Below the pieces are notes generated by a model, which was not told where the DNA came from, did not search any database, and saw only the letters and a program-made list of their open reading frames with translations. The translations under genes and the position numbers were made by a program. Shown piece after piece: positions 1 to 14,431 of a stretch of 14,431 nt of DNA. Position 1 is the first letter of the stretch, and each line of letters opens with the position of its first letter. The DNA is taken from contig JAUWNS010000049.1 in assembly GCA_030612485.1 (NCBI GenBank), forward strand, positions 1-14,431, in the 5' to 3' direction. Source of the stretch: Candidatus Bipolaricaulota bacterium. GTDB taxonomy: Bacteria; Bipolaricaulota; Bipolaricaulia; UBA7950; UBA9294.

Positions 1-339
1 ACCGTCGAATGAACGCACACCAAACAAACGCGCGAACAAATTCAGGTTCTCTATGGCACTCATCTTCTCGTAGAGATTTGCGTCCTCAAAGCAGACACCG
101 ATGTCTCCCTGTACTTTCTCAACGTTCCTGGCAACATCCATGCCAAGTAGTGTGGCTCTACCACCTTTGGGTTTAAGCTGTCCCGTCAGCATCTTAACAG
201 TAGTAGTCTTGCCGGCACCATTGGGACCCAGAAACCCTAGAATTTCGCCTTCAGCCACATTAAAACTGATGTGGTCCACGGCAACCAATTTGCCATACCG
301 GTAGGTCAGTTCCTCAGCAATAATCGCATCGCGAGCCAC
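1..339 (-). CDS. ABC transporter ATP-binding protein (N-terminal part, runs off left edge)
   Basis: This gene encodes the nucleotide-binding subunit of an ABC transporter, which hydrolyses ATP at the inner face of the membrane to drive export. The 113 codons visible give the N-terminal half of the domain. The Walker A motif GPNGAGKTT lies at residues 38-46, after an A-loop-like Tyr-Arg-Tyr at 13-15, and the Q-loop region is near residues 80-90. The order and the IGVCFEDANLYEKMS segment resemble the DrrA/CcmA-type (ABC-2) ATPases. Signature motif, Walker B and C-terminus lie beyond base 1. I chose the GTG start because AAGGAG sits 5 nt upstream; no in-frame ATG is better placed. The Q-loop position carries Glu (CFE) where Gln is usual. 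Its permease should be encoded off the left edge. The permease remnant at 363-683 is of another (LolE/FtsX-like) type, so the two need not be partners. Confidence 0.9.
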   Translation of the reverse strand, partial: MARDAIIAEELTYRYGKLVAVDHISFNVAEGEILGFLGPNGAGKTTTVKMLTGQLKPKGGRATLLGMDVARNVEKVQGDIGVCFEDANLYEKMSAIENLNLFARLFGVRSFDG

Positions 340-362
340 ATCATCTCCTTCCCCACTGTACG

Positions 363-683
363 CTAGATCCAGCTTGTTGGAATTGTATCATATACCTGAA
401 TGGCCCATTTGGTCAATCGAGAATCAAGCGCGCTCGCCACCTGTTGCAGCGTGAGCCCGTTCGACGGCACCGGATCGTCGGCGTAGCCCACGGCGCAGAC
501 CTGAAAGGCGCCCTGGTTCTGGGTAGTCTGCGAGTTCGTCATCGAGGCGAAGAAGCCATCGGTGATCCCCCACATCACCAGGATCACCCAGCTGCCGAAA
601 GCGACCGTGGCGATCATCAAGAATGTACGCTGCGGATGGTGCCACAGGTTGCACCACGCAATGCGCCAAGTCATGAGGTTCAT
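363..683 (-). pseudogene. truncated ABC transporter permease (LolE/FtsX-like), N-terminal remnant
   Basis: The ORF encodes 106 residues that begin like a full-length ABC permease of the LolE/FtsX/MacB type. There is a short basic N-terminus (MNLMTWRIAWCNLWHHPQRT), one transmembrane segment at about residues 20-42, and the start of the external domain (a GYADDPVPSNGLT-like stretch). Members of that family are usually near 400 residues with four membrane spans; here only the first span remains. Family-like sequence fades after about residue 92, and the last 14 or so residues come from what looks like the promoter of the next gene. The start codon overlaps the stop of the upstream tetR-type gene (ATGA), which implies translational coupling in the ancestral operon. 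I read it as a deletion remnant. A functional short membrane protein or an assembly error cannot be excluded. Confidence 0.7.
387..416 (-). promoter_or_regulatory. sigma70-type promoter for the ABC ATPase gene
   Basis: Read on the minus strand there is TTGACC (411-416), an 18-nt spacer and TATGAT (387-392), with transcription expected to start near 380, about 40 nt before the GTG start at 339. The -35 box lies inside the last codons of the permease remnant's ORF. It is a prediction from consensus only. Confidence 0.55.
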
Positions 684-2359: not shown

Positions 2360-5300
2360 ATGAACGGCACAAAACGGATTTTGGTCACGGCTATCACTCT
2401 GATCATAAGTCTTTCCTTCCTCGTTGTGGTTTCTACGGTTACCTTGGCGAAAACGATTGAGGTTCCAGGGGATTATACCACGCTGCAGCGGGCGATAGAT
2501 GCCGCACGCAGCGGCGATAAGATCATCCTCACGACAAGGGCGCGAACCTTGCGGGAAAACATAACTCTGCGCAACGATCGCCGGCTAACGATCACTACCT
2601 CATCGCGAACAAGGGAGGTGACGATCAATGGAAGCAGGCGGAATGAGCCTGTCATCACGCTCACCAATTGTAGCTCGATCACGTTCGAGAACATCATTAT
2701 CCAGAGCGGATCGGTCGGTGTTTTCTCTCAGAACAGCAGGGATATTGTATTTACGGACTGCACGATCGAGAAAAACAGGACTGCCGGACTCCAGGGGACC
2801 GGGTTCACGCTAGAAGACAGTGTAGTTCAGCGCAACGGCACATGGGGTGTTGAGTTGATCGGCGATCCGACCGACCCGAGTAAGGTGGAAGCGGTAATCG
2901 AGACGAGCACCATCGCTTATAATCGCCAGGGTGGGTTTTCTGTGCGGGCGGCTACCCTCGAGATCAAGAGCTCCACGATCGAGAAGAACCTCGGGTATGG
3001 GCTCGATGTCAGTGATAAGGCGGTGGTGACGTTCAACGACACGATAAGGCCTACCGTAATCTTTGAGAACAAGGGTGGAGGCATCTTCGTCCACGATGCC
3101 ACGCTCACGGTGCAGGGGACCGTTCGCGATAACAAAGGACCGGGAATCCTCGCTGAGTCAGCAACGCTCGACCTCGACGAGGCAACGGTCTCTGGAAACC
3201 CGGACGGAGGAGTGATCTACCGGGAATCGACTGGGACGATCAACGCCAGTCAGATCATCGATAATGATGACGACGGGGTAGTCCTCGAACTGGAAAGCAC
3301 GGTAACCTTCTCGGGGAGCACGGTCTCTGGACAGAGCGGCCGTGGAATATATGTAACCGGTGGTTCTGATGTTCGCCTTACTGAGAAGACCACTGTCACG
3401 GGAAACGGCACGGACGGCTTAGTAATCGACACTGCTACTGGCACGGTGAGCAATTCCACGATCGCCAGTAACACCGAGAACGGAATCCTCGTGCTCAACG
3501 GCGGGACGGTAACCGTACAGGAGAACTCGATAGTTACTGATAACACGATCGATGGTATCGCGGTCAATGGGGCAACAGCCAACATCGAAGGATCTCATGT
3601 TGAGAAGAGCGGAGTCAACGGTGTCTACGCAACTGACGAAGGGCAGGTGAACATCCTTAAGAAATCGATCATCTCCGAGAACGTAGCCGATGGACTTTCC
3701 CTGAAAGGGGCGACGGGGACGATCGACGACAGCACACTAAAAGAGAATGGCGCTAACGGAGCGCACGCGACGGAAAGCTCGTTCCTCTATGCCCGGAACG
3801 GGGCTCTCTTCTTTGCGAACGACGAGAACGGCCTGTTCAGCGAGGAGAGCTACCTGGAGATGGCGGACTGTGAGGTCCGTGCGAACCAGGTGAACGGGGT
3901 CTACACCGTCTCCTCTGAGGCGAAGATTGTGGGAACGACGATCGCTGAGCAGGTCGAACATGGAATCCTTATGGAGAATAGCTCTGTATTCGTCTCTTCA
4001 TCGAAGATCCTTGCCAATCGGATGGAAGGGATCAAGGAGGTGCGCTCTAAGCTCTCCCTCTCTGATTCGACCGTAGACGGAAACACTAACAACGGTCTCC
4101 TCTTGGAGCACGCGATCGCTGATATCCTTGATTCCATCATCACCAACAACGGGATCCACGGGATCGACGCGCAACAGAACTCTAGCGTAACTGCCACGAC
4201 GACCCTCATCTCCGGACATCCTGATGATGGAGTAAGCCTGCAAAACAGCTCCGGCGATTTCCTCCGGTGTCAGATTAAGGATAACCAGGCACACGGGATC
4301 GACGCAATGATCTCGACGATCGTGATGGATACCTGTGAAGTCTCGGGGAATAGCCTGAACGGCATCGAGTTGGTGAATTCGACCGCCGATCTTACGAATA
4401 GCGAACTCATCGACAATACGGGGCGGGGGCTGAACGCGCAGGATTCGACGGCATCGCTAATTGGCTGTACCATCTCCGGGCAGAAGGTGGAGGGGGTTGT
4501 CCTCACCAACTCTGCTGCCGGGTTCGAATCGACGAATATCGAGGGGAACGCGAGTGTCGGACTCCTCGCCACCAATTCGGTGGCTGCGCTGAACAAGGGG
4601 ACGGTCTCTAACAACGGCGATGATGGGATGCGCCTGACAAAAGCGTCGATCGACGCGAAGGAGCTCACCATCTTGTCGAATGCCGGGAATGGAATCCATG
4701 CCGAATCCTCCGGCGCGACGCTCTTCGATTGCACCGTGAGCAATAACGTAAGGGACGGTCTGTGGCTCCATTTCTCTCAAATCCAGGCCGAGCTGACCAC
4801 CATCACCAAGAACGGAGGTTATGGAATCTACGGCGAGGAGCGCTCACGCGCGACGATTCTCAACTCAGCGATTGCAGATCACCCGAAAGATGGAATTCGG
4901 ATGAGCGACTCCACTGCCGATGTGCGCGCAAGCCAGATCGTCGACAACCATGGCGAAGGGATCTTTGCCGATCGTTCGGTCGTGAAGCTTCTCGATGGAA
5001 GCGAGATCTCCGGACAGACGGGGAATGGCCTTCTACTCTCGAACAGCTTTGCCGAAGTGAAAGGGAGCACTCTTACTGATAACGGGATCGACGGGGTTCA
5101 TGCGACGACATCAACGATCATCCTATCGAACTCCGGGGTATCCGACCATCAAGCGAATGGACTCTACCTCATCGATTCCAAGGCCGAGCTTGAGAATTCT
5201 CACGTGACAGCGAACCATGAACGAGGGATCCGAGCAGAGCGGAACTCCGAAGCAAAACTCATCGGGAGCACAGTCGACGAGAACGGCTCGGAAGGGGTCA

Positions 5301-7081
5301 TCCTCGATTCGAGCTCGCTCGAGGCGAAGGAGAGCCAGATCGAGGGTAATGGGACGAACGGCATCGTCGGGGTGAACGGGAAGGTGACCCTTCTCGCCTC
5401 TACCGTTTCCGATCATCCGGATGACGGGATACTTCTCTCTGGGACCACGGCCGACATCACCGAGAGCCGCATCACCAACAACCGCGGCCACGGGATCGAC
5501 GCCCTGGCTGGGGTTAACTCGATGATCACCCTCAACGCCTCCGAAGTGTCGGGGAACAGCGAACAGGGGATTCACCTGGAGGACTCCGGGGCGGATCTCG
5601 TCGGGAGCAAGGTGGATCGAAACGGCGACGTCGGAATCTACGCCGAGCGGTCGATCCTGAACCTTTCGAAGGTGAGCGAGGTAACCAATCATCCGAGTGA
5701 CGGAATCGTGCTCAAATCGAGCTCGGCGAAGATCATCGATTCGCTGATCCGCGACAATAAGGGGCACGCCCTCCGCGCCGACGATTCCAAGGCAACCCTC
5801 GAAGGGGATACGATCAGCAATAATGGCGAGAACGGGTTGGAGGCCTCTGCTAGTTCGATCACCGCTGTCACCTGTCAGATCACAGATAACGGTGTATCGG
5901 CCGTCCACGCCACCAATCGGGCGCGGGTAACGCTCGTGGGGAGCAAGGTAACCGGGCATCCTAAGGATGCAATCGTTCTTGACATGAGTTCGGTTGACCT
6001 CCAGGATAGCGAAATCAAGGAGAACGACGCTCGCGGGATCGTGGCGACAAACGGGACTCTCACCGTCTCCGGAACCCTCATCTCCGAGCACCAGGGTGTG
6101 GGAATCGACCTCACCGATTCGCGTGCCGATGTGAAGAGCTCGCAGATCAAGGAGAACGGCGACCACGGTGTCGTCGCGATTAAATCCACGATCGTGCTGA
6201 ACGATTCAACCATCTCCGGGCACCCGGACGACGGAATCACGCTCGATACCTCTTCGTTGGAATTGGTCGGAAGCCTCCTTATCAACAATAAAGGGGTTGG
6301 AGTGATGGCCGTGGATTCCCAGACGACGATCTCCGGGAGCACCATCTCCGGCAACACCGGATACGGGCTGGATCTCATCGATAGTTCGGCAGTGGTGATG
6401 AACCTCTCCGAGATCAAGGAGAACGGCGACATTGCAATCAACACGAAGAACGCGACGGTTAGCCTCCTCAATTCGAGCATTACCGATCACCCGGCAACGG
6501 GTTTGTTCCTCAATAACTCTCCCGCGTCCCTCAGCAAGAGCACGATAAGTGGGAACCAGGGTTGGGGGGTCGAGGCCGTAGATCATACGGCGATGATGGC
6601 GAGTGACTCGCTATTCACTAATAACAAGCTTGGTGGAATCTCTCTTGTGAGCTCGGTCGCCGCGCTCCTAGGCGGGGATGTGAAGGAGAATCTCGGAAGC
6701 GGGGTCGCTTTGAGTGAGCGATCGGCAGTGCTGGTGATCGGTGCGACGGTCTCGGGTAACCAAGGAGAAGGATTCTTGATCGATACCTCATCGGCATCGA
6801 TGCGGCAAGCGACCGTCACCGGAAACAGCGGAAACGGGTTGGGGCTGTTCAACCAGTCCGTGCTATCGCTCTATGAGTCACAGGTGTCGGACAACATGAA
6901 GGACGGACTCCACCTCGAAAGCTCACTCGCCTCGGTTCGATCGAACACGATCACACAGAACACGGGGTTTGGGATCTTCGCCGATGGGGAGTCGCTCCTT
7001 GCCGGGTACGATAACACCATCTCTGGAAACGGGACCAACTTCTCGGAGACGATCCCCGTGGAGTTGACCCAGCCGCGGTAA
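2360..7081 (+). CDS. giant secreted right-handed parallel beta-helix protein
   Basis: A 1573-residue protein. Residues 1-30 form a Sec signal peptide (MNGTKR, then a long hydrophobic core and a cleavage site near STVTLA-K). Next is the usual NosD/pectate-lyase-like lead-in, VPGDYTTLQRAIDAARSGD (about 36-54). From about residue 80 to 1560 the protein is one uninterrupted ladder of 22-23 residue coils with the pattern S-x-I-x-x-N-x-x-x-G-I-x-x-x-x-S, some 60-65 turns. The turns alternate in character, giving 44-45 residue pairs and 89-residue four-coil blocks. Coils are most regular after about residue 590. No catalytic motif, transmembrane anchor, LPXTG, PEP-CTERM or autotransporter domain is seen; it ends VELTQPR and then tandem stops TAATAG. 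Known relatives act on polysaccharides or serve as adhesins, but with no recognisable active site a structural, surface or carbohydrate-binding role is only inferred. A monocistronic unit with its own promoter and terminator. Confidence 0.9.
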   Translation: MNGTKRILVTAITLIISLSFLVVVSTVTLAKTIEVPGDYTTLQRAIDAARSGDKIILTTRARTLRENITLRNDRRLTITTSSRTREVTINGSRRNEPVITLTNCSSITFENIIIQSGSVGVFSQNSRDIVFTDCTIEKNRTAGLQGTGFTLEDSVVQRNGTWGVELIGDPTDPSKVEAVIETSTIAYNRQGGFSVRAATLEIKSSTIEKNLGYGLDVSDKAVVTFNDTIRPTVIFENKGGGIFVHDATLTVQGTVRDNKGPGILAESATLDLDEATVSGNPDGGVIYRESTGTINASQIIDNDDDGVVLELESTVTFSGSTVSGQSGRGIYVTGGSDVRLTEKTTVTGNGTDGLVIDTATGTVSNSTIASNTENGILVLNGGTVTVQENSIVTDNTIDGIAVNGATANIEGSHVEKSGVNGVYATDEGQVNILKKSIISENVADGLSLKGATGTIDDSTLKENGANGAHATESSFLYARNGALFFANDENGLFSEESYLEMADCEVRANQVNGVYTVSSEAKIVGTTIAEQVEHGILMENSSVFVSSSKILANRMEGIKEVRSKLSLSDSTVDGNTNNGLLLEHAIADILDSIITNNGIHGIDAQQNSSVTATTTLISGHPDDGVSLQNSSGDFLRCQIKDNQAHGIDAMISTIVMDTCEVSGNSLNGIELVNSTADLTNSELIDNTGRGLNAQDSTASLIGCTISGQKVEGVVLTNSAAGFESTNIEGNASVGLLATNSVAALNKGTVSNNGDDGMRLTKASIDAKELTILSNAGNGIHAESSGATLFDCTVSNNVRDGLWLHFSQIQAELTTITKNGGYGIYGEERSRATILNSAIADHPKDGIRMSDSTADVRASQIVDNHGEGIFADRSVVKLLDGSEISGQTGNGLLLSNSFAEVKGSTLTDNGIDGVHATTSTIILSNSGVSDHQANGLYLIDSKAELENSHVTANHERGIRAERNSEAKLIGSTVDENGSEGVILDSSSLEAKESQIEGNGTNGIVGVNGKVTLLASTVSDHPDDGILLSGTTADITESRITNNRGHGIDALAGVNSMITLNASEVSGNSEQGIHLEDSGADLVGSKVDRNGDVGIYAERSILNLSKVSEVTNHPSDGIVLKSSSAKIIDSLIRDNKGHALRADDSKATLEGDTISNNGENGLEASASSITAVTCQITDNGVSAVHATNRARVTLVGSKVTGHPKDAIVLDMSSVDLQDSEIKENDARGIVATNGTLTVSGTLISEHQGVGIDLTDSRADVKSSQIKENGDHGVVAIKSTIVLNDSTISGHPDDGITLDTSSLELVGSLLINNKGVGVMAVDSQTTISGSTISGNTGYGLDLIDSSAVVMNLSEIKENGDIAINTKNATVSLLNSSITDHPATGLFLNNSPASLSKSTISGNQGWGVEAVDHTAMMASDSLFTNNKLGGISLVSSVAALLGGDVKENLGSGVALSERSAVLVIGATVSGNQGEGFLIDTSSASMRQATVTGNSGNGLGLFNQSVLSLYESQVSDNMKDGLHLESSLASVRSNTITQNTGFGIFADGESLLAGYDNTISGNGTNFSETIPVELTQPR
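2597..7040 (+). repeat. beta-helix coil array encoded in tandem (about 66-bp units, 267-bp higher-order period)
   Basis: The coding sequence is a degenerate tandem array of about 66-69 bp coil units. A higher-order period is visible. The turn (G/D/N)HP-x-D-G, or its His-only variant, starts at residues 840, 929, 1018, 1110, 1199, 1287 and 1376, spaced 88-92 residues (four coils). An earlier copy is at 619. The intermediate pairs at 885, 973, 1065, 1154, 1243 and 1331 carry other turns. Confidence 0.85.
6144..6430 (+). repeat. identical 20-bp direct repeat 267 bp apart
   Basis: The sequence agatcaaggagaacggcgac occurs at 6144-6163 and again at 6411-6430, exactly 267 bp (89 codons) apart and in the same frame. 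A shorter related copy (atcaaggagaacg) begins at 6014, 132 bp (two coils) before the first. The match at DNA level, including third positions, suggests relatively recent duplication or gene conversion. Confidence 0.8.
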
Positions 7082-7103
7082 TAGGTTGCGTTTGAGCAAA
7101 AAA

Positions 7104-7141
7104 ACACGATGGGGCGAGGTACCTACCTCGCCCCTTTTTTA
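7104..7141. terminator. bidirectional intrinsic terminator between convergent genes
   Basis: A GC-rich perfect inverted repeat, GGGGCGAGGTA-CC-TACCTCGCCCC (7111-7134), is followed by six T (7135-7140) for the plus-strand beta-helix gene. On the other side an A-run (about 7098-7104) gives a T-run a few bases after the hairpin for minus-strand transcription. The TAA stop of the minus-strand gene (7139-7141) lies at the end of the T-run. Confidence 0.9.
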
Positions 7142-9151
7142 TGGGTGCAGGCGGATTATTGTGAGCCCTTCTTCACGGTCAGCGACGTAGGCCATATCTT
7201 CAGTGGCGAAAATGTTGACCGCGCACCCTGGTGTGTCGAAGACAGCAAGGAGCTTTGGTGCAGTCGGATCGGTGAGGCTATATACCGAGAGTCCTTTGTT
7301 CGAGTCGGCTGCGTAGAGGAAATTTCCCCGTTGGAAGAACCCAACCACCTCCCCATCTGTGGTGACTGTCCTTACCTCGATTGGGTGTGCTGGGTCGCTA
7401 AGATCGATCACGCGGATTCCACGGTACCCTGCTGCTGCGTAGACGAAGTCGCCGTAGGCAGCGGCATCGGTCACATCGCCGGGAAGATCGATCTCGCTCA
7501 GTCCGACCGGGCGTGTGGGATCGGAGATGTCAATCACCTCTAACCCGACATCCCCGGTCGCTACAAGCGCGAGCGAACCAACGATCGTGATCCCCTCGGC
7601 AAAACCGCGCGTCGCCCAGGCCCCCACGCTCTTTGGAGCGGAAGGACTCGCGATGTCGATCACCTGCAAGCCGCTGTTGAAGTCGGCGATAAAAGCGTAG
7701 TGCCCCCTCACCGCCACGTCCTGGGCCGAGCCGGGTGTGTCGAGAACGCCCAGTTCCAAGAGGTTCGCAGGATCGGATATGTCTATGATCAAGAGTCCTT
7801 CTCCCCTGTCCGCGATGTAGGCTTTGTTCCCATCAAGCGCGATAGCTTGTGCGTAGCCACGTGTGCTGTGCGAACCGATCTCCACCGGGGCGATTGGATC
7901 GGAGAGGTCGATGACGAGGAGACCCTTCACCCCGACGATCAGGTAGGCTAGATCGCCCTTTACCCAGAGATCGAGCGCGTACCCCGAGGAGTTAAACCTC
8001 CCGATCGCTTCGAGCTTTAGGATCACGTCCAAGCGCACGGTGTATCCTCCGGTTCCGTCGCTTCGCGCGTGCTGCACGGAGAGGTAGTAGCTTCCGCTGG
8101 CCGGCGCGGTCCACTCGATCGTAGCCGCTTTCTGACCGAGCGCTTTGTCCTCGGCCAGCACGGTCATTCCATCTGGCGCATAGAGGGTCAGGACCACATC
8201 CATTGTGCTATCGTGAGGCTCGGCAACGAGGGTGTACTCTCCGTCTTTGGATGCGTTAAACGAGAATAGGTCGACATCACCAGGAACATCGATTCGACCG
8301 GAGACGCCGCCCCCCTCGGCGGGTATTGGTGTTGCCTTGCGGGCCTCGTTCGCGTGATCGTCCCCGTAGCCAAGCTGGGTAACTGTGAGGTCGTACCCCC
8401 CGGTCTCTGCTTCATCAGAGTGTCTTACTGAGATGAAGTATGTCCCAGATGATAAAGCACCCCAGGCGATCCGCGAGGCAGCGCCCATCCCTGAATCATC
8501 ATCGATTGCGACCGTGCTCCTCCCGTCGGTGTCGAGAAGCTCGACCACCGTGTCCATCCCTTCAGAGAGGTTCTTGCTCTCGATCACGTAGTCGTACCCC
8601 TTCTCGACGGAGAAGAAGAAGAGGTCGACATCCTCACCGACCTCTATGGAACCAGGGGTCGGCGTTCCGTCCGTCGCGACCGGAGAGGCCGTGATAGCGC
8701 TATCACCATGGTCGTCAGTTTGAACCGCAATGACCGAGAGCTCGTAGCAACCGGTGCCGCTGGTGGCACGAGCGTGCCGCACCATTGCGAAGTATGTTCC
8801 CGATAACTCGCAGGTCCATTCGATTCGCGAAGCCGTTCCCTCCCCCGAATCATCATCTACCGCGAGGATGGTCTGCCCATCGGTGCCGAAGAGGAAGAGG
8901 ATCGAGTCCATATCGGTCGAGAGGTGGCTCGTCTGGAGGATATAGCGGCGTCCTCCTACAGCGGAGAAGAGGATGTAGTCGATATCGCCGGGAGGATCGA
9001 TGCACCCGGAGAGAAGCGTGCCAGAAGTGGAGACCGGCGACGCTGTAAGCGGTGTGTTTCCGTGCATATCCGCAGGCAAGGCCGCCGCCCCGAAGCCGAT
9101 CAACGCGATTGAAACGATGATAACGAGTGATAATCGGTGTCTTGCATTCAT
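7139..9151 (-). CDS. secreted protein with three PPC domains and a seven-repeat LVIVD beta-propeller
   Basis: A 670-residue exported protein. The signal peptide is residues 1 to about 27 (MNARHR, hydrophobic core, AAALPA). Three bacterial pre-peptidase C-terminal (PPC) beta-sandwich domains follow, at about 28-143, 147-259 and 263-376. Each opens with an (A/D)D-x-H-G/A segment and ATP-I/V or ASPV, then shows the (P/E)GD-(I/V)D-(Y/L) strand, an MD-(S/T/V)-(I/V/L) strand, and an SGTYF- or SGSYY-type strand near the end. Residues 381-670 are seven LVIVD repeats of 42 residues (the last is 38), each with GLxVIDISDP-like endings, probably closing a seven-bladed propeller. No catalytic domain is present, so the role is likely binding or scaffolding outside the cell. 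The ATG follows GGGGAAGGAG at 9-nt spacing. The gene converges with the beta-helix gene and shares its terminator. Confidence 0.9.
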   Translation of the reverse strand: MNARHRLSLVIIVSIALIGFGAAALPADMHGNTPLTASPVSTSGTLLSGCIDPPGDIDYILFSAVGGRRYILQTSHLSTDMDSILFLFGTDGQTILAVDDDSGEGTASRIEWTCELSGTYFAMVRHARATSGTGCYELSVIAVQTDDHGDSAITASPVATDGTPTPGSIEVGEDVDLFFFSVEKGYDYVIESKNLSEGMDTVVELLDTDGRSTVAIDDDSGMGAASRIAWGALSSGTYFISVRHSDEAETGGYDLTVTQLGYGDDHANEARKATPIPAEGGGVSGRIDVPGDVDLFSFNASKDGEYTLVAEPHDSTMDVVLTLYAPDGMTVLAEDKALGQKAATIEWTAPASGSYYLSVQHARSDGTGGYTVRLDVILKLEAIGRFNSSGYALDLWVKGDLAYLIVGVKGLLVIDLSDPIAPVEIGSHSTRGYAQAIALDGNKAYIADRGEGLLIIDISDPANLLELGVLDTPGSAQDVAVRGHYAFIADFNSGLQVIDIASPSAPKSVGAWATRGFAEGITIVGSLALVATGDVGLEVIDISDPTRPVGLSEIDLPGDVTDAAAYGDFVYAAAGYRGIRVIDLSDPAHPIEVRTVTTDGEVVGFFQRGNFLYAADSNKGLSVYSLTDPTAPKLLAVFDTPGCAVNIFATEDMAYVADREEGLTIIRLHP
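7142..8011 (-). repeat. seven LVIVD repeats (42 codons each)
   Basis: Repeat starts fall at residues 381, 423, 465, 507, 549, 591 and 633. The first six are exactly 42 residues and the last is 38, ending at the C-terminus. The common ending is G-L-x-V-I-D-(I/L)-S-D-P-x-x-P; repeats 6 and 7 are the most divergent (LSVYSLTDP, LTIIRLHP). Confidence 0.85.
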
Positions 9152-9208
9152 TGTGCTCTTCTCCTTCCCCGGAAGATCAAAAAAATTCCTGTATAGCCTC
9201 TTGCATTC

Positions 9209-9237
9209 AGGATAGAGGCCCGGGTCTGTTCCTTCAA
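9209..9237 (-). promoter_or_regulatory. candidate promoter of the PPC/LVIVD gene
   Basis: On the minus strand: TTGAAG (9232-9237), a 17-nt spacer and TATCCT (9209-9214), about 58 nt before the ATG at 9151. Matches are partial. A TATACA further downstream lacks a good -35. Confidence 0.35.
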
Positions 9238-9271
9238 GTACGAGAGTGCGGCATTAAAACCCTTGTTTCCC

Positions 9272-9298
9272 CTGCCCGCTCGTTTCATGATCGGGCAG
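9272..9298. other. inverted repeat in the divergent intergenic region
   Basis: CTGCCCG (9272-9278) and CGGGCAG (9292-9298) form a perfect 7-bp inverted repeat around a 13-nt centre that contains TCATGA. It lies between the divergent PPC/LVIVD and ACT-domain genes and could be a regulator site or an RNA hairpin. No T-run follows, so it is not an obvious terminator. Confidence 0.35.
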
Positions 9299-9396
9299 TT
9301 GCGGATCGAACTTACCAATGTCCGTTTGAAAACTCCCAAATCTGCCGTGTTTGACGAGAGGCTTCCCTAAGATTGCGTTGGGGTGAGGTGAGTACG

Positions 9397-9801
9397 ATGC
9401 GCGGTGCGCGTTTGCAGAGAGAGCTCGTCATTCGAACGGATAACAGGGTTGGCTTGTTGGGAGAGATCACCCGGCTGTTGAGCGATATGGGGATCAGTAT
9501 CGTCTCAATCTCCGTTAGGGCGGAGAATGGAACTGCAACGTTCCATCTCCTTACCGCTGTACACCTCGCCGCTCGGGATGCCCTGCGCAGGGCCGGTTTC
9601 CTGGTGGAAGAGAGGGAGGTGATCGTCCTCGATCTCCCCCATCACCCGGGTTTTCTCTGCCGGGTGGCCGAGGCCCTGGCCCGCAAGGACCTCGACCTGC
9701 AAGAACTATACGCGACCGTGTCAGATGGGAGTACAAAGAGCTTGGTGGTCTTCACCACTTCCCATAACAACAAGGCCGTGCAGATGCTGCGCGGACACTG
9801 A
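9397..9801 (+). CDS. tandem ACT-domain protein
   Basis: A 134-residue protein made only of two ACT domains. The first covers about residues 8-68 (LVIRTDNRVGLLGEITRLL, then GISIVSISVRAENGTATF) and the second about 72-134 (VIVLDLPHHPGFLCRVAEAL, then LDLQELYATV and KSLVVFTT). ACT domains bind amino acids or other small ligands at dimer interfaces. Stand-alone tandem ACT proteins (COG4747-like) are presumed sensors or regulators, sometimes found beside acyl-CoA ligases, and no enzyme partner is visible here. I prefer the ATG at 9397 because GAGGTGA ends 5 nt upstream. A TTG at 9373 would add eight residues but has no comparable ribosome binding site. The gene is divergent from the PPC/LVIVD gene and ends 21 nt from the convergent macroglobulin gene, with no clear terminator between them. 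Confidence 0.85.
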   Translation: MRGARLQRELVIRTDNRVGLLGEITRLLSDMGISIVSISVRAENGTATFHLLTAVHLAARDALRRAGFLVEEREVIVLDLPHHPGFLCRVAEALARKDLDLQELYATVSDGSTKSLVVFTTSHNNKAVQMLRGH

Positions 9802-9822: not shown

Positions 9823-12800
9823 TCATTCTCCCTCTGTTACCGTAAAGATCCGTCCATCTGCTCGCCCGAAGACCTCCGGGAAGTAGAACTCGTTCGCCGT
9901 GGTGGGGATGACATGGTAGGTCCCGACCTGCGTGGCACGGAAGGTGTACTGGTAGGTGTAGGTCCCCGCCGGCAGGTAATTGGCGAAGAGGACGACCTTT
10001 TCGTCGCGCATCTCGCTTCTGCTGTACCAGCGCCACCACCACCAGTAGAAGGATGACCACCGGTTGCTCTCTGACTCACGGAAGAGTCCCGGCTCTTGAG
10101 AAAGGAGGCTCGTCGTTTCCAGACTCGTATCGATCGCTTCGCAGCCGGCCGGGAGCGGATCCTCAATGACGACGTAGTACAGGTCGTGAGGGGCAATGAT
10201 CGTCAATCGCACCTGAACGGTCTCTCCCACGGAGGCGTGGTTCACCTCCTCGCACGTCTCGTTGAACGAGCAAGCGACCGGTACGTACTGGCGCTGAACG
10301 ATGATTCCCCGATCGAGCGCTTCGATCTCCTCGACTGGGAGATGAACCTTGAGGTGCGCGGTGTAGTAGATGCGTCCCGCGCCGGGACCGCGCCAGATGA
10401 CGAGGCGATTTCCGACGTCAGAAAGGAGATCGGCCACGTCCACCCGTAGCTTGATCGATTCACCCACGTTCTCTGGAACTACTTGCCCTTCGTCGAGGGT
10501 GCTCCCGTTCAAGCGGATACCGTAGTTGTAGGAACCTTCAAGTTCGCCTGTGACGACCATCCAATCGGTCAGCGCAATGAGCGCCCAGGCCGTCTCCTGC
10601 GTCGTCTCCCAGATTCCGTCTTTGCGTGCGATCATCAGCCAGCGTACAACGTTTGGTATGAGCGCGTTGTTGGGATCTAGTTTCGCCAGGCAATCGAGGA
10701 TGACGGCGGTGGAGCGGGTATCGGTGTTCATCGCCCAGAAATCGTAGTCCTCCTCCTCCCAGTGTGCGCCTGTGGCACTGAGGATGGCGGCGTTCTGAAT
10801 ATCCGAGAGGAGCGTCTGCACCCGACTGTCGTTCGCATCGATCAGGTTGAGGGTGAGCGCCAGGTAGGCGCGGGCATAGTGGCTCAGTTTCTCGCGGGCG
10901 TCGAATAGAGAGTCGGCCCACTTTCTCGCCTCGGAGGTGCGCCCTGCCTCGGTGATGACATAGAGGATCCACGCCTGCCGGTTCGCCTCGCAATAGGAGT
11001 CGAGCTCCTTGGAAGAGACCAACCTGCCGACGAGGAAGTCCAATCCACGCTCGATGACGTTCCTCTCCACCTCGAAGCCGACCTCCTGGACCTTTGTGAG
11101 GGCGAAGACGACGTACGCGGTGAGGTAGGAACTCGATTCATCCGCCCCCCACCAGCCCCCCCCGCCATCCGTGTGCTGCTTCAAGGTCAGACGGCTCAGC
11201 CCTTCTGCGACTAGATTAGGGAGCTTTGCCGAGAGTTCCGGGTCATCGATATTAAGGTCGCGCAGGGCGCGGTAGGTGAGGACGTTTGGGAGGAAGCGAC
11301 TGACGATCTGTTCGGTGCACTCGTAGGGGAAGTGTTCAAGGTAGTCGAGGCCGTCGCGCATCCCCGCAGCGAGCGAGGGATCGAGTTGGATCGTGAGTTC
11401 ACCTTGCCTGTCGTCGTACTTCGGAGGAAGGGCGATCACCTCGGTTCGGCTCCCCTCGTCCGTCAGCTGGCCGGCGGTCCCCACAATCTCCGGGGCGGTG
11501 TAGCGGTAGACAGGGAGGGTCCCATCCGGCCCTGTGGTCAAGCGTGGACGGGCGGCATCGGAGAGTTCGCCACTCGTGGCACTCATCGCGAGGTCCACCT
11601 GTGGGACATCCTCTACCGTCGCCCACCAGGAGACCTTCGCTTCCTCGCCGGCGGGGATATCGATCGATTGTGTGGCCGCGCTCTCCAGGGTTAGACCGGT
11701 GTATCCGATCGTGACCTCGACCGTGAGCAGGGTATCGGTGTTGTTGTTGACGAGCGCGTGAAGCTTCACCCGGTCTCCGACGACGAAGAAACGCGGGGTG
11801 ACCGGGCGGATCAGGAGCGGCTTGGTGACCAGAAGCTCGGTCGTCTTCTCACCTACCTGGGTCGCCTGCGTGACCCCGACGGCGCGGAAGATCCACGTGG
11901 TCAGGTTATCGGGAAGATCGATCGTGACCTGCGCCACTCCGTCAGTATCTGTGGAGATTTTCGCATTCCAGTAGGCGGTATCGTCGAACTGTTCGCGCAG
12001 CTCGACTCCCGGAGGGAGTTGGTCTGCAGCCCCTTCAGAAATGCGCTCGCCTCCTGCTTTTTCATCGACCGCCATCAGCGCGACCCCTGGTGCAGGCGGT
12101 ACGGCTCCAGTCGCTCGATCGAGCCCATAGCCTATATTGTCGTCTGTATCGGCAATCCCCACCTCCTCCATCTGCTCAGCGACGAGCCTGTTGATCGAGA
12201 TCGCGAGGCCGCTCGATGTCGTCACTCCCAACCCGCGGCGATCGTAGAACGCCTGCAGGATCGCATCGGGTTTGCGGGGCTTAAGGGTGAGGATCGCCTT
12301 GTCGACCAGGTCGAGGGAGAGGGAAGTGCTCACCGGTTCGCCGAGATCGTCGGTAACAAACACGGTGTAGCTCACCTGTGATCCCGGTAAGGCTTGTGCT
12401 ACCGAAGGGGTCAGGGTGATGTGGAGTGTCTGCGGGATGGGATCGACCGCCAGGGAGACGTAGCCGACCTTGGTGCTGGCTACGGCTGGGCTGCCACCTG
12501 AGGTTGTAAGTGCGGCCGCTTTCCCCTGCACGATCACTACACTGACGTAGATATTTGGGGCATGCTCCGCAGCGATTGGGAGGGTGTAGACCGTGCTGTT
12601 CGATTCGAGGCGGATCACTTCGTGGGTGAGTATCGTCCCGCGTTCGACGGTGACAAGGGCCCATTGTTCGCCGGAGAAGGGGCTGGGAATGAGTATCTGA
12701 GCCGTCTCTCCGGGCGTGTAAGTCGTCTTATCGCTGATCAGAGTGATCCGATCATCGTTGCTCCGTCGCCAGGAGACGGACTCCGGGCTGCTCGCCCAGA

Positions 12801-14431
12801 GGAAGAGGCTCGACTGCACCATCCGTTCGTACGCGTCGTGCCCGCGGACGACGACCTTATAAGAACCGCCGACCGGTGGAGTGAAGGTCACGACTCCTTC
12901 AGCGTTCTCGGAGGTGACAAGCGATCCGCTAGTGATCTCGATATCGTTCGTCTCCCACTCCCAGTGCCCGCCACCTGCCTCATCTTCGATATAGGTGTTC
13001 TTCCATTCACGGCGGTAGATGAGATATTCCAGCAGTTTTGCGGCGAGCCGCTCACCGTTCCAATCGACGGTGACCAGGTCGACGTTCATCTCGTCACCGG
13101 CGCGGCCGATGTATCGTTCTGCTGCCAGTCCGACATAGAAATCGCCACGGTGAGCGACGATCGTCGTGCGCCCGGAGAGGGTCTGGCCGTCGTTCCCGCG
13201 GACCGTGGCCTCGATCGTGAGAGTGCGACTCCCTAGTGGTGCTTCTGCTGACGGATCCGCGGTTAGGCTAGCCACACCCTCCGGAAGATCGATCACGAAC
13301 TTCCCGTTCGCATCGGTCCTCCCCGTCCCCTTGAGGACGATCTCCGGTGGAACGGGCGAACGCCACCAGCAGGACCACCATCTCCAGGGATCGTCTACGT
13401 CGGTGAACGTGTAGCGGGAGAACTGATCGGGCACGAAGCGGTACTCATCAGCAAGGACAACCCACTCCACCTGTGCATCCTTCACCCCGCCTCCGAAGAA
13501 GTACTGTACATTCACCGTTGCCTGGGGCGCTTCGCCGCGGGCGATCTCGGTATCCGCTGGGGTGACCGTAACCTCGAACTCCGGGGGGCGGTACGCGGCC
13601 ACCTGGAAGGAACCGGAGAAATTCGTCTCTTTGATGCTCGCGCGGAGGCTGTAGTTACCGAGGGCTGCCTCCTTGGTGAGGACGAGTTCCCCGGAGAAGG
13701 CACCGAACTGGTCTAGAGGGAGCGTCTCTTCGTAGACGACCTCCCATGCGACATCGCGGATCGTTACATCCACCGTGCTATGGTGCGGGAGAGCGTAGCG
13801 GGCGTCGTCCTCAGCACGGATCACGCCCTTGAAATACACCGTCTGGGCGGGGCGGTAGATCGGGCGGTCGGTGTAGATGTGAGCACGCCAATCCGGTGTA
13901 TAGCCCGAATTGAAGCCGAACTCCCACACGGAGATTCCATCGTTCCACTGAGTACTCCCCATGGTAAATGGCCGCTGAGAGAGTATGGTGGTTCCGTACC
14001 AATTGGACGATTCGTCCAATGAAAGAGTGGCCAATCCGTTGCTGTCGGTGATTGAAGCGGAGTGCTCCACCCCCTTGTTATCGACAGCGCGGAGGATGAG
14101 CCCAGGGACCGGAGCTCCGGTCTCGAGATCGGTCGCCCATGCAAGAACCTGATCCTCGTCGCTCTTGAGGGTGAGGTTGATCTCGCTCACTACCAAGAGG
14201 TGTCGGTGCTGCCAGCGGCTGTAAGAGATACCATCGGCATGCAGTTCCAAACAATAGATTCCCGGATCCAGCCTCCCACCCCCTTCGACAAGGTCGATCG
14301 GGGTGTAGCCCACCTCGTTGAGAGGGGACTCGACCGGGACCGACCAGTCGCGCAACCGTCCGCTAGAGGGAAGAACGAAGCGGTACCAATTATCCTGTGC
14401 TGCGAGATACTCATCGATAGTGAGACGGTAG
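9823..14431 (-). CDS. bacterial alpha-2-macroglobulin, thioester type (N-terminus beyond right edge)
   Basis: The reading frame stays open to base 14431, so the 1535 residues visible lack the true start; the TTG at 14355 is internal. Bacterial alpha-2-macroglobulins trap attacking proteases in the periplasm or at the cell surface. Counting from the right edge, a bacterial MG domain is followed by the MG2 hallmark YTDRPIYRPAQTVYFKG (about 186-202) and YRPPEFEVTV of MG3 (about 280). A bait-like, Ala/Gly/Glu-rich stretch is encoded around 11994-12185. The A2M core segment DLPDNLTTW is next, then the thioester motif CTEQ (codons 11308-11319, Cys at about residue 1038) heading the helical thioester domain, and a C-terminal MG10 domain (EDPLPAG, then LPAGTYTYQYTFRA). 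It ends FTVTEGE without an anchor. Two Trp clusters are odd. The usual partner pbpC is not visible. Confidence 0.93.
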   Translation of the reverse strand, partial: YRLTIDEYLAAQDNWYRFVLPSSGRLRDWSVPVESPLNEVGYTPIDLVEGGGRLDPGIYCLELHADGISYSRWQHRHLLVVSEINLTLKSDEDQVLAWATDLETGAPVPGLILRAVDNKGVEHSASITDSNGLATLSLDESSNWYGTTILSQRPFTMGSTQWNDGISVWEFGFNSGYTPDWRAHIYTDRPIYRPAQTVYFKGVIRAEDDARYALPHHSTVDVTIRDVAWEVVYEETLPLDQFGAFSGELVLTKEAALGNYSLRASIKETNFSGSFQVAAYRPPEFEVTVTPADTEIARGEAPQATVNVQYFFGGGVKDAQVEWVVLADEYRFVPDQFSRYTFTDVDDPWRWWSCWWRSPVPPEIVLKGTGRTDANGKFVIDLPEGVASLTADPSAEAPLGSRTLTIEATVRGNDGQTLSGRTTIVAHRGDFYVGLAAERYIGRAGDEMNVDLVTVDWNGERLAAKLLEYLIYRREWKNTYIEDEAGGGHWEWETNDIEITSGSLVTSENAEGVVTFTPPVGGSYKVVVRGHDAYERMVQSSLFLWASSPESVSWRRSNDDRITLISDKTTYTPGETAQILIPSPFSGEQWALVTVERGTILTHEVIRLESNSTVYTLPIAAEHAPNIYVSVVIVQGKAAALTTSGGSPAVASTKVGYVSLAVDPIPQTLHITLTPSVAQALPGSQVSYTVFVTDDLGEPVSTSLSLDLVDKAILTLKPRKPDAILQAFYDRRGLGVTTSSGLAISINRLVAEQMEEVGIADTDDNIGYGLDRATGAVPPAPGVALMAVDEKAGGERISEGAADQLPPGVELREQFDDTAYWNAKISTDTDGVAQVTIDLPDNLTTWIFRAVGVTQATQVGEKTTELLVTKPLLIRPVTPRFFVVGDRVKLHALVNNNTDTLLTVEVTIGYTGLTLESAATQSIDIPAGEEAKVSWWATVEDVPQVDLAMSATSGELSDAARPRLTTGPDGTLPVYRYTAPEIVGTAGQLTDEGSRTEVIALPPKYDDRQGELTIQLDPSLAAGMRDGLDYLEHFPYECTEQIVSRFLPNVLTYRALRDLNIDDPELSAKLPNLVAEGLSRLTLKQHTDGGGGWWGADESSSYLTAYVVFALTKVQEVGFEVERNVIERGLDFLVGRLVSSKELDSYCEANRQAWILYVITEAGRTSEARKWADSLFDAREKLSHYARAYLALTLNLIDANDSRVQTLLSDIQNAAILSATGAHWEEEDYDFWAMNTDTRSTAVILDCLAKLDPNNALIPNVVRWLMIARKDGIWETTQETAWALIALTDWMVVTGELEGSYNYGIRLNGSTLDEGQVVPENVGESIKLRVDVADLLSDVGNRLVIWRGPGAGRIYYTAHLKVHLPVEEIEALDRGIIVQRQYVPVACSFNETCEEVNHASVGETVQVRLTIIAPHDLYYVVIEDPLPAGCEAIDTSLETTSLLSQEPGLFRESESNRWSSFYWWWWRWYSRSEMRDEKVVLFANYLPAGTYTYQYTFRATQVGTYHVIPTTANEFYFPEVFGRADGRIFTVTEGE
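11308..11319 (-). other. CTEQ thioester motif of the macroglobulin
   Basis: Codons for Cys-Thr-Glu-Gln within HFPYECTEQIVSRFLP. In the A2M/C3 superfamily the Cys and Gln side chains form the internal thioester that covalently captures a target after bait cleavage, so the intact motif predicts a chemically active protein. Confidence 0.9.
11994..12185 (-). other. probable bait region of the macroglobulin
   Basis: About 64 codons between the MG6-like part and the A2M core encode a low-complexity segment rich in Ala, Gly, Glu, Asp and Pro (for example VPPAPGVALMAVDEKAGGE). It has few basic residues and no expected secondary structure. Its place in the domain order matches the protease-sensitive bait region. 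Boundaries are approximate. Confidence 0.6.

Follow-up and report, generated by a model that had tools for sequence, protein, structure and literature searches.

An apparent asparagine ladder interrupted by histidine in a giant predicted beta-helix protein of Candidatus Bipolaricaulota

The window, a stretch of 14,431 nucleotides from a Candidatus Bipolaricaulota assembly (contig JAUWNS010000049.1), encodes a giant beta-helix protein whose unusually long apparent asparagine ladder is interrupted, largely in steps of four coils, by turns in which His, usually followed by Pro, takes the place of Asn. The reading preferred here, with a probability of roughly 60%, is that these His rungs are a selected structural spacer turn within the ladder. 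The fold itself is already known; the His-interrupted, unusually long ladder is best read as a new variant of it.

According to the models, the 1573-residue protein is a right-handed parallel beta-helix, rod-like and of about 65 coils. Two AlphaFold2 models cover residues 30-830 (pLDDT 96.2) and residues 796-1425 (pLDDT 97.7), and DSSP assigns to them three-strand coils stacked as one continuous predicted helix over residues 30-1425. The coil parse places the anchor of coil 65 at residue 1562 of 1573. Given a rise of 4.8 A per coil, the rod would be about 31 nm long. The only Pfam models matching the protein at E <= 0.001 are Beta_helix (PF13229; E 1.6e-153, 505.9 bits against a cut-off of 25.9) and NosD (PF05048; 227.3 bits against a cut-off of 23.6), the latter overlapping the generic beta-helix match. 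Residues 1-30, read by eye, comprise a basic start, a long hydrophobic run and small residues preceding KTIEVPG, and the protein is probably exported.

Loop position -4 of the coil is apparently an asparagine ladder. It is occupied in the window protein by 49 Asn, 9 His, 4 Gln, 2 Ser and 1 Gly over the 65 coils. In the alignment of 16 segments described below it is the least variable column of the coil (0.23 bits, against about 2.6 bits for columns +2 and +4). A second regularity is found at position +3, which probably faces the core. Leu-type and Ala-type coils alternate here from about coil 21 to coil 58. The 11-sequence profile of coils 18-58 gives Leu at +3 (0.89) and Ala at +8 (0.61-0.62) for odd coils; for even coils it gives Ala at +3 (0.74) and a mixture of Val (0.26), Ala (0.19), Leu (0.16) and Ile (0.13) at +8, so that large and small core residues seem to swap between the two positions in alternating coils. 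The replacement of the ladder Asn by His (sometimes by Gln), usually with Pro next to it, is almost exclusively confined to coils that are Leu-type at +3. The features of the window are listed in Table 1.

Table 1. Coordinates of the beta-helix gene, its ladder turns and the flanking features in the window
Feature	Position	Strand	Basis or conservation
Giant beta-helix gene	2360..7081	+	ORF; 1573 aa, about 65 coils
Signal-peptide-like N terminus, residues 1-30	2360..2449	+	sequence, judged by eye
Short N-terminal helix, residues 42-48, preceding first coils	2483..2503	+	DSSP of predicted model (segment residues 13-19)
Coil 10 turn, Gln at ladder position	3329..3346	+	coil parse
Coil 19 turn, Gln at ladder position	3947..3964	+	His in G066, G067, G081
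Coil 23 turn GHPDDG, ladder His 620	4214..4231	+	coil parse; eighth HP turn
Coil 27 turn, Gln at ladder position	4478..4495	+	His in G081, G080, G094
Coil 33 turn DHPKDG, ladder His 841	4877..4894	+	His in 16/16 segments
Coil 35 turn, Gln at ladder position	5012..5029	+	His in 8/16 segments
Coil 37 turn DHQANG, ladder His 930	5144..5161	+	16 segments: His 9, Gln 1, Asn 6
Coil 41 turn DHPDDG, ladder His 1019	5411..5428	+	16 segments: His 15, Gln 1
Coil 45 turn NHPSDG, ladder His 1111	5687..5704	+	16 segments: His 13, Gln 3
Coil 49 turn GHPKDA, ladder His 1200	5954..5971	+	16 segments: His 15, Gln 1
Coil 51 turn EHQGVG, ladder His 1244	6086..6103	+	16 segments: His 10, Gln 5, Ser 1
Coil 53 turn GHPDDG, ladder His 1288	6218..6235	+	His in 16/16 segments
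Coil 57 turn DHPATG, ladder His 1377	6485..6502	+	His and Pro in 16/16 segments
Inverted repeat, T-rich runs on both strands	7111..7134	.	consensus terminator scan
Converging neighbour: PPC domains and LVIVD repeats	7139..9151	-	Pfam
ACT-domain gene	9373-9801	+	beside alpha-2-macroglobulin gene
Alpha-2-macroglobulin gene	9823-14430	-	

In the 65-coil parse the His rungs are coils 23, 33, 37, 41, 45, 49, 51, 53 and 57. A preliminary description of this DNA had listed seven turns beginning at residues 840, 929, 1018, 1110, 1199, 1287 and 1376, separated by 89, 89, 92, 89, 88 and 89 residues, and had taken every step as four coils. All of these numbers are correct, and the seven turns fall on coils 33, 37, 41, 45, 49, 53 and 57. 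The additional His that it placed at turn 1243 is His 1244 of coil 51, two coils out of the four-coil phase. Its motif for the turns, mostly HP-x-D-G, holds for the first two letters, HP being present in six of the seven turns; the whole HPxDG is present in four. The turn of coil 23, out of phase with the seven, had been overlooked. The four Gln rungs, coils 10, 19, 27 and 35, had also escaped notice, and with them the rule that His stands in for Asn. At coil 23, HP is present in all 10 rows having letters, the window included; the other two of the 12 rows are gaps.

The four-coil order is visible in the coil register of coils 32-58, and the raw sequence does not favour lag 89. The preliminary description had anticipated a stronger self-similarity at a lag of 89 residues than at 44-45. 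The raw autocorrelation of residues 111-1540 is -0.04 at lag 89, which is below that at lag 44 (0.10), with values of 0.15 at lag 22 and -0.12 at lag 45. In coil register the value for lag 4 is above that for lag 2 within coils 32-58 (1.49 vs 1.07); the two are close over coils 2-64 (1.20 vs 1.16), and lag 2 is the larger in coils 2-31 (1.25 vs 0.99). Six of the nine ladder His have a further His four coils on. Random placement over the 65 coils produced at least that much four-coil spacing in 6 of 200,000 trials, and placement limited to the 19 odd-numbered coils from 21 to 57 produced it in 7,483 of 200,000 (3.7%). Within the window alone, the restriction to odd coils is thus strong and the exact four-coil step is only moderate; it is conservation in relatives that carries the case.

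When the parity of the coils is kept in the shuffles, the lag-4 excess of the window is found at column -3 (z 3.4) and, less, at -4 and -6 (z 1.8 each). The corresponding values in the 11-sequence profile are 2.7 at -3, 1.5 at -4 and 4.2 at -6, and the remaining columns have z of 1.6 or less in both the window and the profile. The four-coil order is separate from the Leu/Ala alternation and is mostly limited to the turn.

Searched with the single protein, 24 of 100 Bipolaricaulota genomes have relatives of the helix at E <= 1e-20. At the same threshold the profile A2 matched in 44 of the 100, other helices being caught as well. A single closely related genome, at about 74% identity, was found. 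One of 301 Chloroflexota genomes drawn matched A2 at E <= 1e-20, and its helix has no His-Pro (HP) rungs. A protein database yielded three relatives to the single-protein query at E <= 1e-10. A search of it with the 11-row alignment A3 gave no relatives at E <= 1e-30 among 7988 candidates scored; assembled genomes do contain relatives, and the empty result is not evidence of rarity. A direct contig scan gave 34 pattern stretches, none of which was confirmed as a relative. One genome (G078) has two helix-like pieces widely separated on one contig, which may reflect a split gene, a paralogue or a fault of assembly.

The conservation of the rungs was examined in an alignment of 16 segments, consisting of the window and 15 relatives with 37-77% identity to it (632 columns per 630 window residues). 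The homologues share ancestry, so the counts of cells exceed the independent evidence. The nine His rungs (144 cells) hold 118 His, 13 Gln, 11 Asn and 2 Ser, and the ordinary rungs (303 cells) hold 299 Asn, 3 Ser and 1 His; Gln is confined to the His rungs. Pro at position -3 occupies 97 cells, always beside His or Gln, and is found in none of the 303 cells of the ordinary rungs. Coils 33, 41, 45, 49, 53 and 57 have His or Gln in all 16 segments and coil 37 has them in 10. The difference at coil 37 is associated with a two-coil slip: among the distant relatives G054, G065, G068, G071, G072 and G069, Asn stands at coil 37 in five, and His is present at coil 35 in every one of the six, replacing the His of coil 37 or accompanying it. 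The relatives keep most His rungs at the same coil, and homologues sharing the order, which the preliminary description had proposed to look for, do exist.

The same order is found in a wider sample of 18 related, non-independent proteins. Their 184 His-His steps comprise 103 of four coils, 35 of two and 17 of six; 170 are even and 14 odd, most of the odd ones being judged to arise in the N-terminal coils, where the array is less regular, or at cut ends. In these proteins the residue at +3 is bulky in 198 of 201 cells of His coils and in 483 of 981 cells of other coils. Some relatives are poor in His; G097 has 7 His in 72 coils. The shorter relatives G064, G060, G061 and G055 have 7, 7, 7 and 4 HP rungs, mostly four coils apart. 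In these four shorter relatives position +3 itself is apparently four-coil ordered, and Glu stands right before several His coils.

Of 12 further loci that were parsed, four belong to the family (L124, L126, L130 and L131, with 9, 4, 1 and 1 HP rungs; L124 and L126 repeat genomes already counted), and the eight outside it (L109 and L132-L138, of which L136 repeats G007) have none. HP rungs are also absent from the other helices G007, G058, P0001, P0002 and P0003, the long Asn run of P0001 being free of His. In total, no HP ladder rung was found in 12 distinct helices outside the family, a difference from NosD and generic Beta_helix repeat proteins (PF05048, PF13229); these helices are weak controls because several of them parse poorly.

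The predicted model of residues 796-1425 contains 27 readable coils. One identical DSSP pattern is common to 7 of the 8 His coils, the single Gln coil and 12 of the 18 Asn coils, and the remaining readable coils deviate from it slightly. The common pattern implies that His occupies one coil position, as had been proposed, in a six-residue loop with unchanged strand limits. Two reports (PMC6879350, PMC10715098) describe beta-helices in which the side chains of the Asn ladder line the inside of the turn. Aligned to AlgG, the profile has four rungs, three with Asn and one with His, opposite Asn residues of AlgG; the His rung of coil 33 meets Thr instead. The published ladders and the AlgG alignment together suggest that the -4 side chains of the window protein point inward and are hydrogen-bonded.

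One rival explanation is pure tandem duplication of a four-coil block, with His merely marking copies of an ancestral unit and having no role of its own. Several observations in the relatives favour it. In G070 whole coils repeat at lag 4 when columns -4 and -3 are removed (z 4.9, 0 of 1000 shuffles), and G088 has a weaker excess of the same kind (z 2.4, 9 of 1000). Close orthologs also differ in array length, most often by 2, 4 or 6 coils. Compared with the window protein, the helix is longer by 2 coils in G088, by 10 in both G066 and G067 (6 + 4), and by 4 in both G095 and G097; that of G081 is 4 coils longer on balance, and two one-coil gaps in it cancel out. Among the six close relatives that are nearly full-length, all but G081 have inserts solely of 2, 4 or 6 coils, and the coils inserted in close relatives fall within the N-terminal third. 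The six distant relatives have gaps of 1, 2, 3 and 4 coils, and their coil alignment is less sure. A possible old duplication of 16 coils joins coils 30-42 and 46-58 (positions 4661-6601), in which the His/Gln layout 0, 2, 4, 8 recurs; the lag-16 excess has z 3.9 over coils 30-58 (0 of 3000 shuffles) and z 2.3 over coils 18-64 (37 of 3000). It was noticed post hoc and is only suggestive.

The window protein itself argues against plain block duplication. Without columns -4 and -3 its lag-4 excess is absent (z -0.2, reached by 605 of 1000 parity-kept shuffles), z is 1.3 or less in 11 of the 13 relatives treated in the same way, the exceptions being G070 and G088, and the 11-sequence profile of coils 30-58 gives z -0.8. 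The His turn persists although the lag-4 excess elsewhere is gone, and neutral drift should erase both; since no four-coil excess is left outside the turn in the window, plain block duplication fails to explain the persistence. The footprint of duplication, one of two explanations offered in the preliminary description, is thus insufficient alone, and this rival is considered unlikely. Nor was a DNA tandem array with a 267-base period found in the window. Recent DNA duplication was ruled out, Tandem Repeats Finder giving just four arrays with units of 9-15 bases. The history that best fits these results is one in which the array lengthened by even numbers of coils and then drifted, its ladder rungs being held by selection.

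The other explanation in the preliminary description was a periodic metal or binding site made by a column of His on one face, taken here as a surface column with a spacing of about 1.9 nm. The occurrence of all His at one coil position of the model and the match to the Pfam NosD model, named 'periplasmic copper-binding protein' (PF05048), are in its favour. The same position, however, is the apparent ladder position, with Asn in 299 of the 303 cells of the intervening rungs, and the His rungs themselves accept Gln (13 of 144 cells) and Asn (11 of 144), which is poorly compatible with a metal site; moreover, lone His residues about 1.9 nm apart would be unable to share a metal ion. Because Gln and Asn replace His at what appears to be a ladder position, a metal or ligand column is regarded as highly improbable. 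A pH-sensitive ladder, in which protonation of His would loosen or tighten the rod, perhaps in the course of export or in acidic habitats, draws on the regular spacing and on the fact that His is the ionisable one among the residues common at -4. It is very unlikely, given that Gln is accepted on the same rungs in relatives. A more elaborate possibility, itself quite unlikely, is an undescribed hierarchical code in which the two-coil Leu/Ala packing and the four-coil His-Pro spacer would together set the mechanics of the rod, and the HP turns, about 1.9 nm apart, would form a ruler docking partners outside the Bipolaricaulota cells (propeller-type LVIVD proteins in one subfamily, nuclease/lamin-tail proteins in another).

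The preferred reading, that of spacer rungs in a long ladder, would work as follows. The Asn side chains at -4 would form bonds with the loops and with one another down the length of the rod. On a His or Gln rung, the longer side chain and the turn fixed by Pro would act as a spacer or cap, so that the ladder stays connected through the change of turn; such rungs would stiffen a very long rod and interrupt a stack of amides that would otherwise be uniform. The rod was probably lengthened in blocks of even coil number, and selection would have retained the spacer rungs after the remainder of each block had drifted. In favour of this reading are the nearly constant Asn of the ordinary rungs, the confinement of Gln to the His rungs and of Pro at -3 to places beside His or Gln, the bulky +3 residue of His coils, the mostly even His-His steps, the lag-4 signal being strongest in columns -6, -4 and -3, the strand limits common to His, Gln and most Asn coils, the four rungs that meet Asn in AlgG and the even inserts of five close relatives. 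Weighing against it are the Thr opposite the coil-33 His rung in AlgG, the 3.7% chance value of the four-coil step in the window, the shared ancestry of the homologues, the other gaps in G081 and the distant relatives, and the low His content of some relatives; G054, G065, G068, G071 and G072, with all columns kept, have no lag-4 excess over the parity-kept shuffles in the tested coils (z -0.9 to 0.6).

Mannuronan C5-epimerases and alginate lyases share the catalytic motif DPHD. This motif is absent from the window protein, in which none of the 29 His is preceded by Pro, and an alginate-active enzyme was ruled out on that ground. The Asn ladder of one such beta-helix, the PL6 lyase BcelPL6, has 10 steps and is described in a 2019 report as the longest then reported (PMC6879350); the 65 coils described here have 49 Asn, 9 His and 4 Gln at the ladder position. 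Periodic His is not mentioned for the alginate-converting beta-helix enzymes (PL6 lyases and the C5-epimerase AlgG, PDB 4nk6) in the accessible portions of the sources. For chlamydial Pmp proteins, as for the window protein, models predict an extended, regular beta-helix that carries an Asn ladder (PMC10715098). Unlike the window protein, which has no match to a barrel domain, Pmps belong to the autotransporters, and their coils carry FxxN paired with GGA(I,L,V); an autotransporter was ruled out because Pfam shows no barrel domain. A Pmp-like passenger with 43 coils, as against about 65 here, is termed record breaking in the part of PMC11166332 that was accessible.

A PDB search with the single protein gave no matches at E <= 0.01. 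A 16-row profile gave eight at E <= 1, the best being the tail fibre gp15 of Staphylococcus phage Andhra (8egr; E 4.7e-17). The structural Z is 38.2 over 340 residues for Bordetella Vag8 and 37.6 over 405 residues for 8egr, in the VIA fold comparison, which covers mainly model residues 282-630. The Vag8/pertactin passengers and gp15 have the fold in common with the window protein at 15-17% identity, and a function is not thereby shared. Searches of the literature on beta-helices, ladders and the phylum, with subscription journals and preprints lying outside their range, gave no His-interrupted Asn ladder or four-coil period among the matches listed.

The gene converging on the helix gene, which encodes LVIVD repeats and PPC domains, adjoins it in 9 of the 17 genomes examined, including the closer relatives. 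It is absent beside the helix in seven, namely the six distant relatives and G070, in which the 3' end of the helix is cut; the contig of the remaining genome, G081, stops within the helix gene. One adjacent ORF was examined in each of the distant relatives: it has SNase and lamin-tail domains in G054, G068, G071 and G072, is an alpha/beta hydrolase in G065 and has no Pfam match in G069. A scan of positions 6900-9500 gave four terminator-like sites against 2.1 expected, two of which are the repeat at 7111-7134 read on either strand. This repeat is possibly a shared two-way terminator of the converging helix and LVIVD genes.

Farther along the window, an ACT homologue occurs near the alpha-2-macroglobulin gene in 9 of 59 relatives' loci. 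One homologue of the alpha-2-macroglobulin has 92% identity, and others are from Bipolaricaulota, Anaerolineae or Chloroflexi; among the 59 genome loci, the first two listed (74% and 65%) and also L010 (71%) come from Candidatus Bipolaricaulota. On the other side of the helix gene, and on the strand opposite to it, a cut ABC-transporter ATPase occupies positions 1-339; the region 1-683 (-) contains this ATPase and a 106-residue ORF without a Pfam match, which by eye resembles the start of a membrane permease.

No experiments or annotated function were found for any member of the family. The helix most likely serves as an extracellular scaffold or adhesin. Prosthecae are known in one member of the phylum, according to the available part of PMC6092417, and no link between them and the helix protein was seen here. 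The ladder and the number of coils exceed the published records of 10 steps and 43 coils, as given in the accessible parts of the reports cited above.

The family is large, probably exported and belongs to a little-studied phylum. Beta-helices are usually described by their single-coil repeat, and in this family two more levels are conserved beyond it, the two-coil alternation of the core and the four-coil interruption of the ladder. If the spacer reading is true, it would provide a sequence rule for long, stiff, non-aggregating beta-helical rods, and the relatives, with about 37 to 80 or more parsed coils, would be a natural series for testing that rule.
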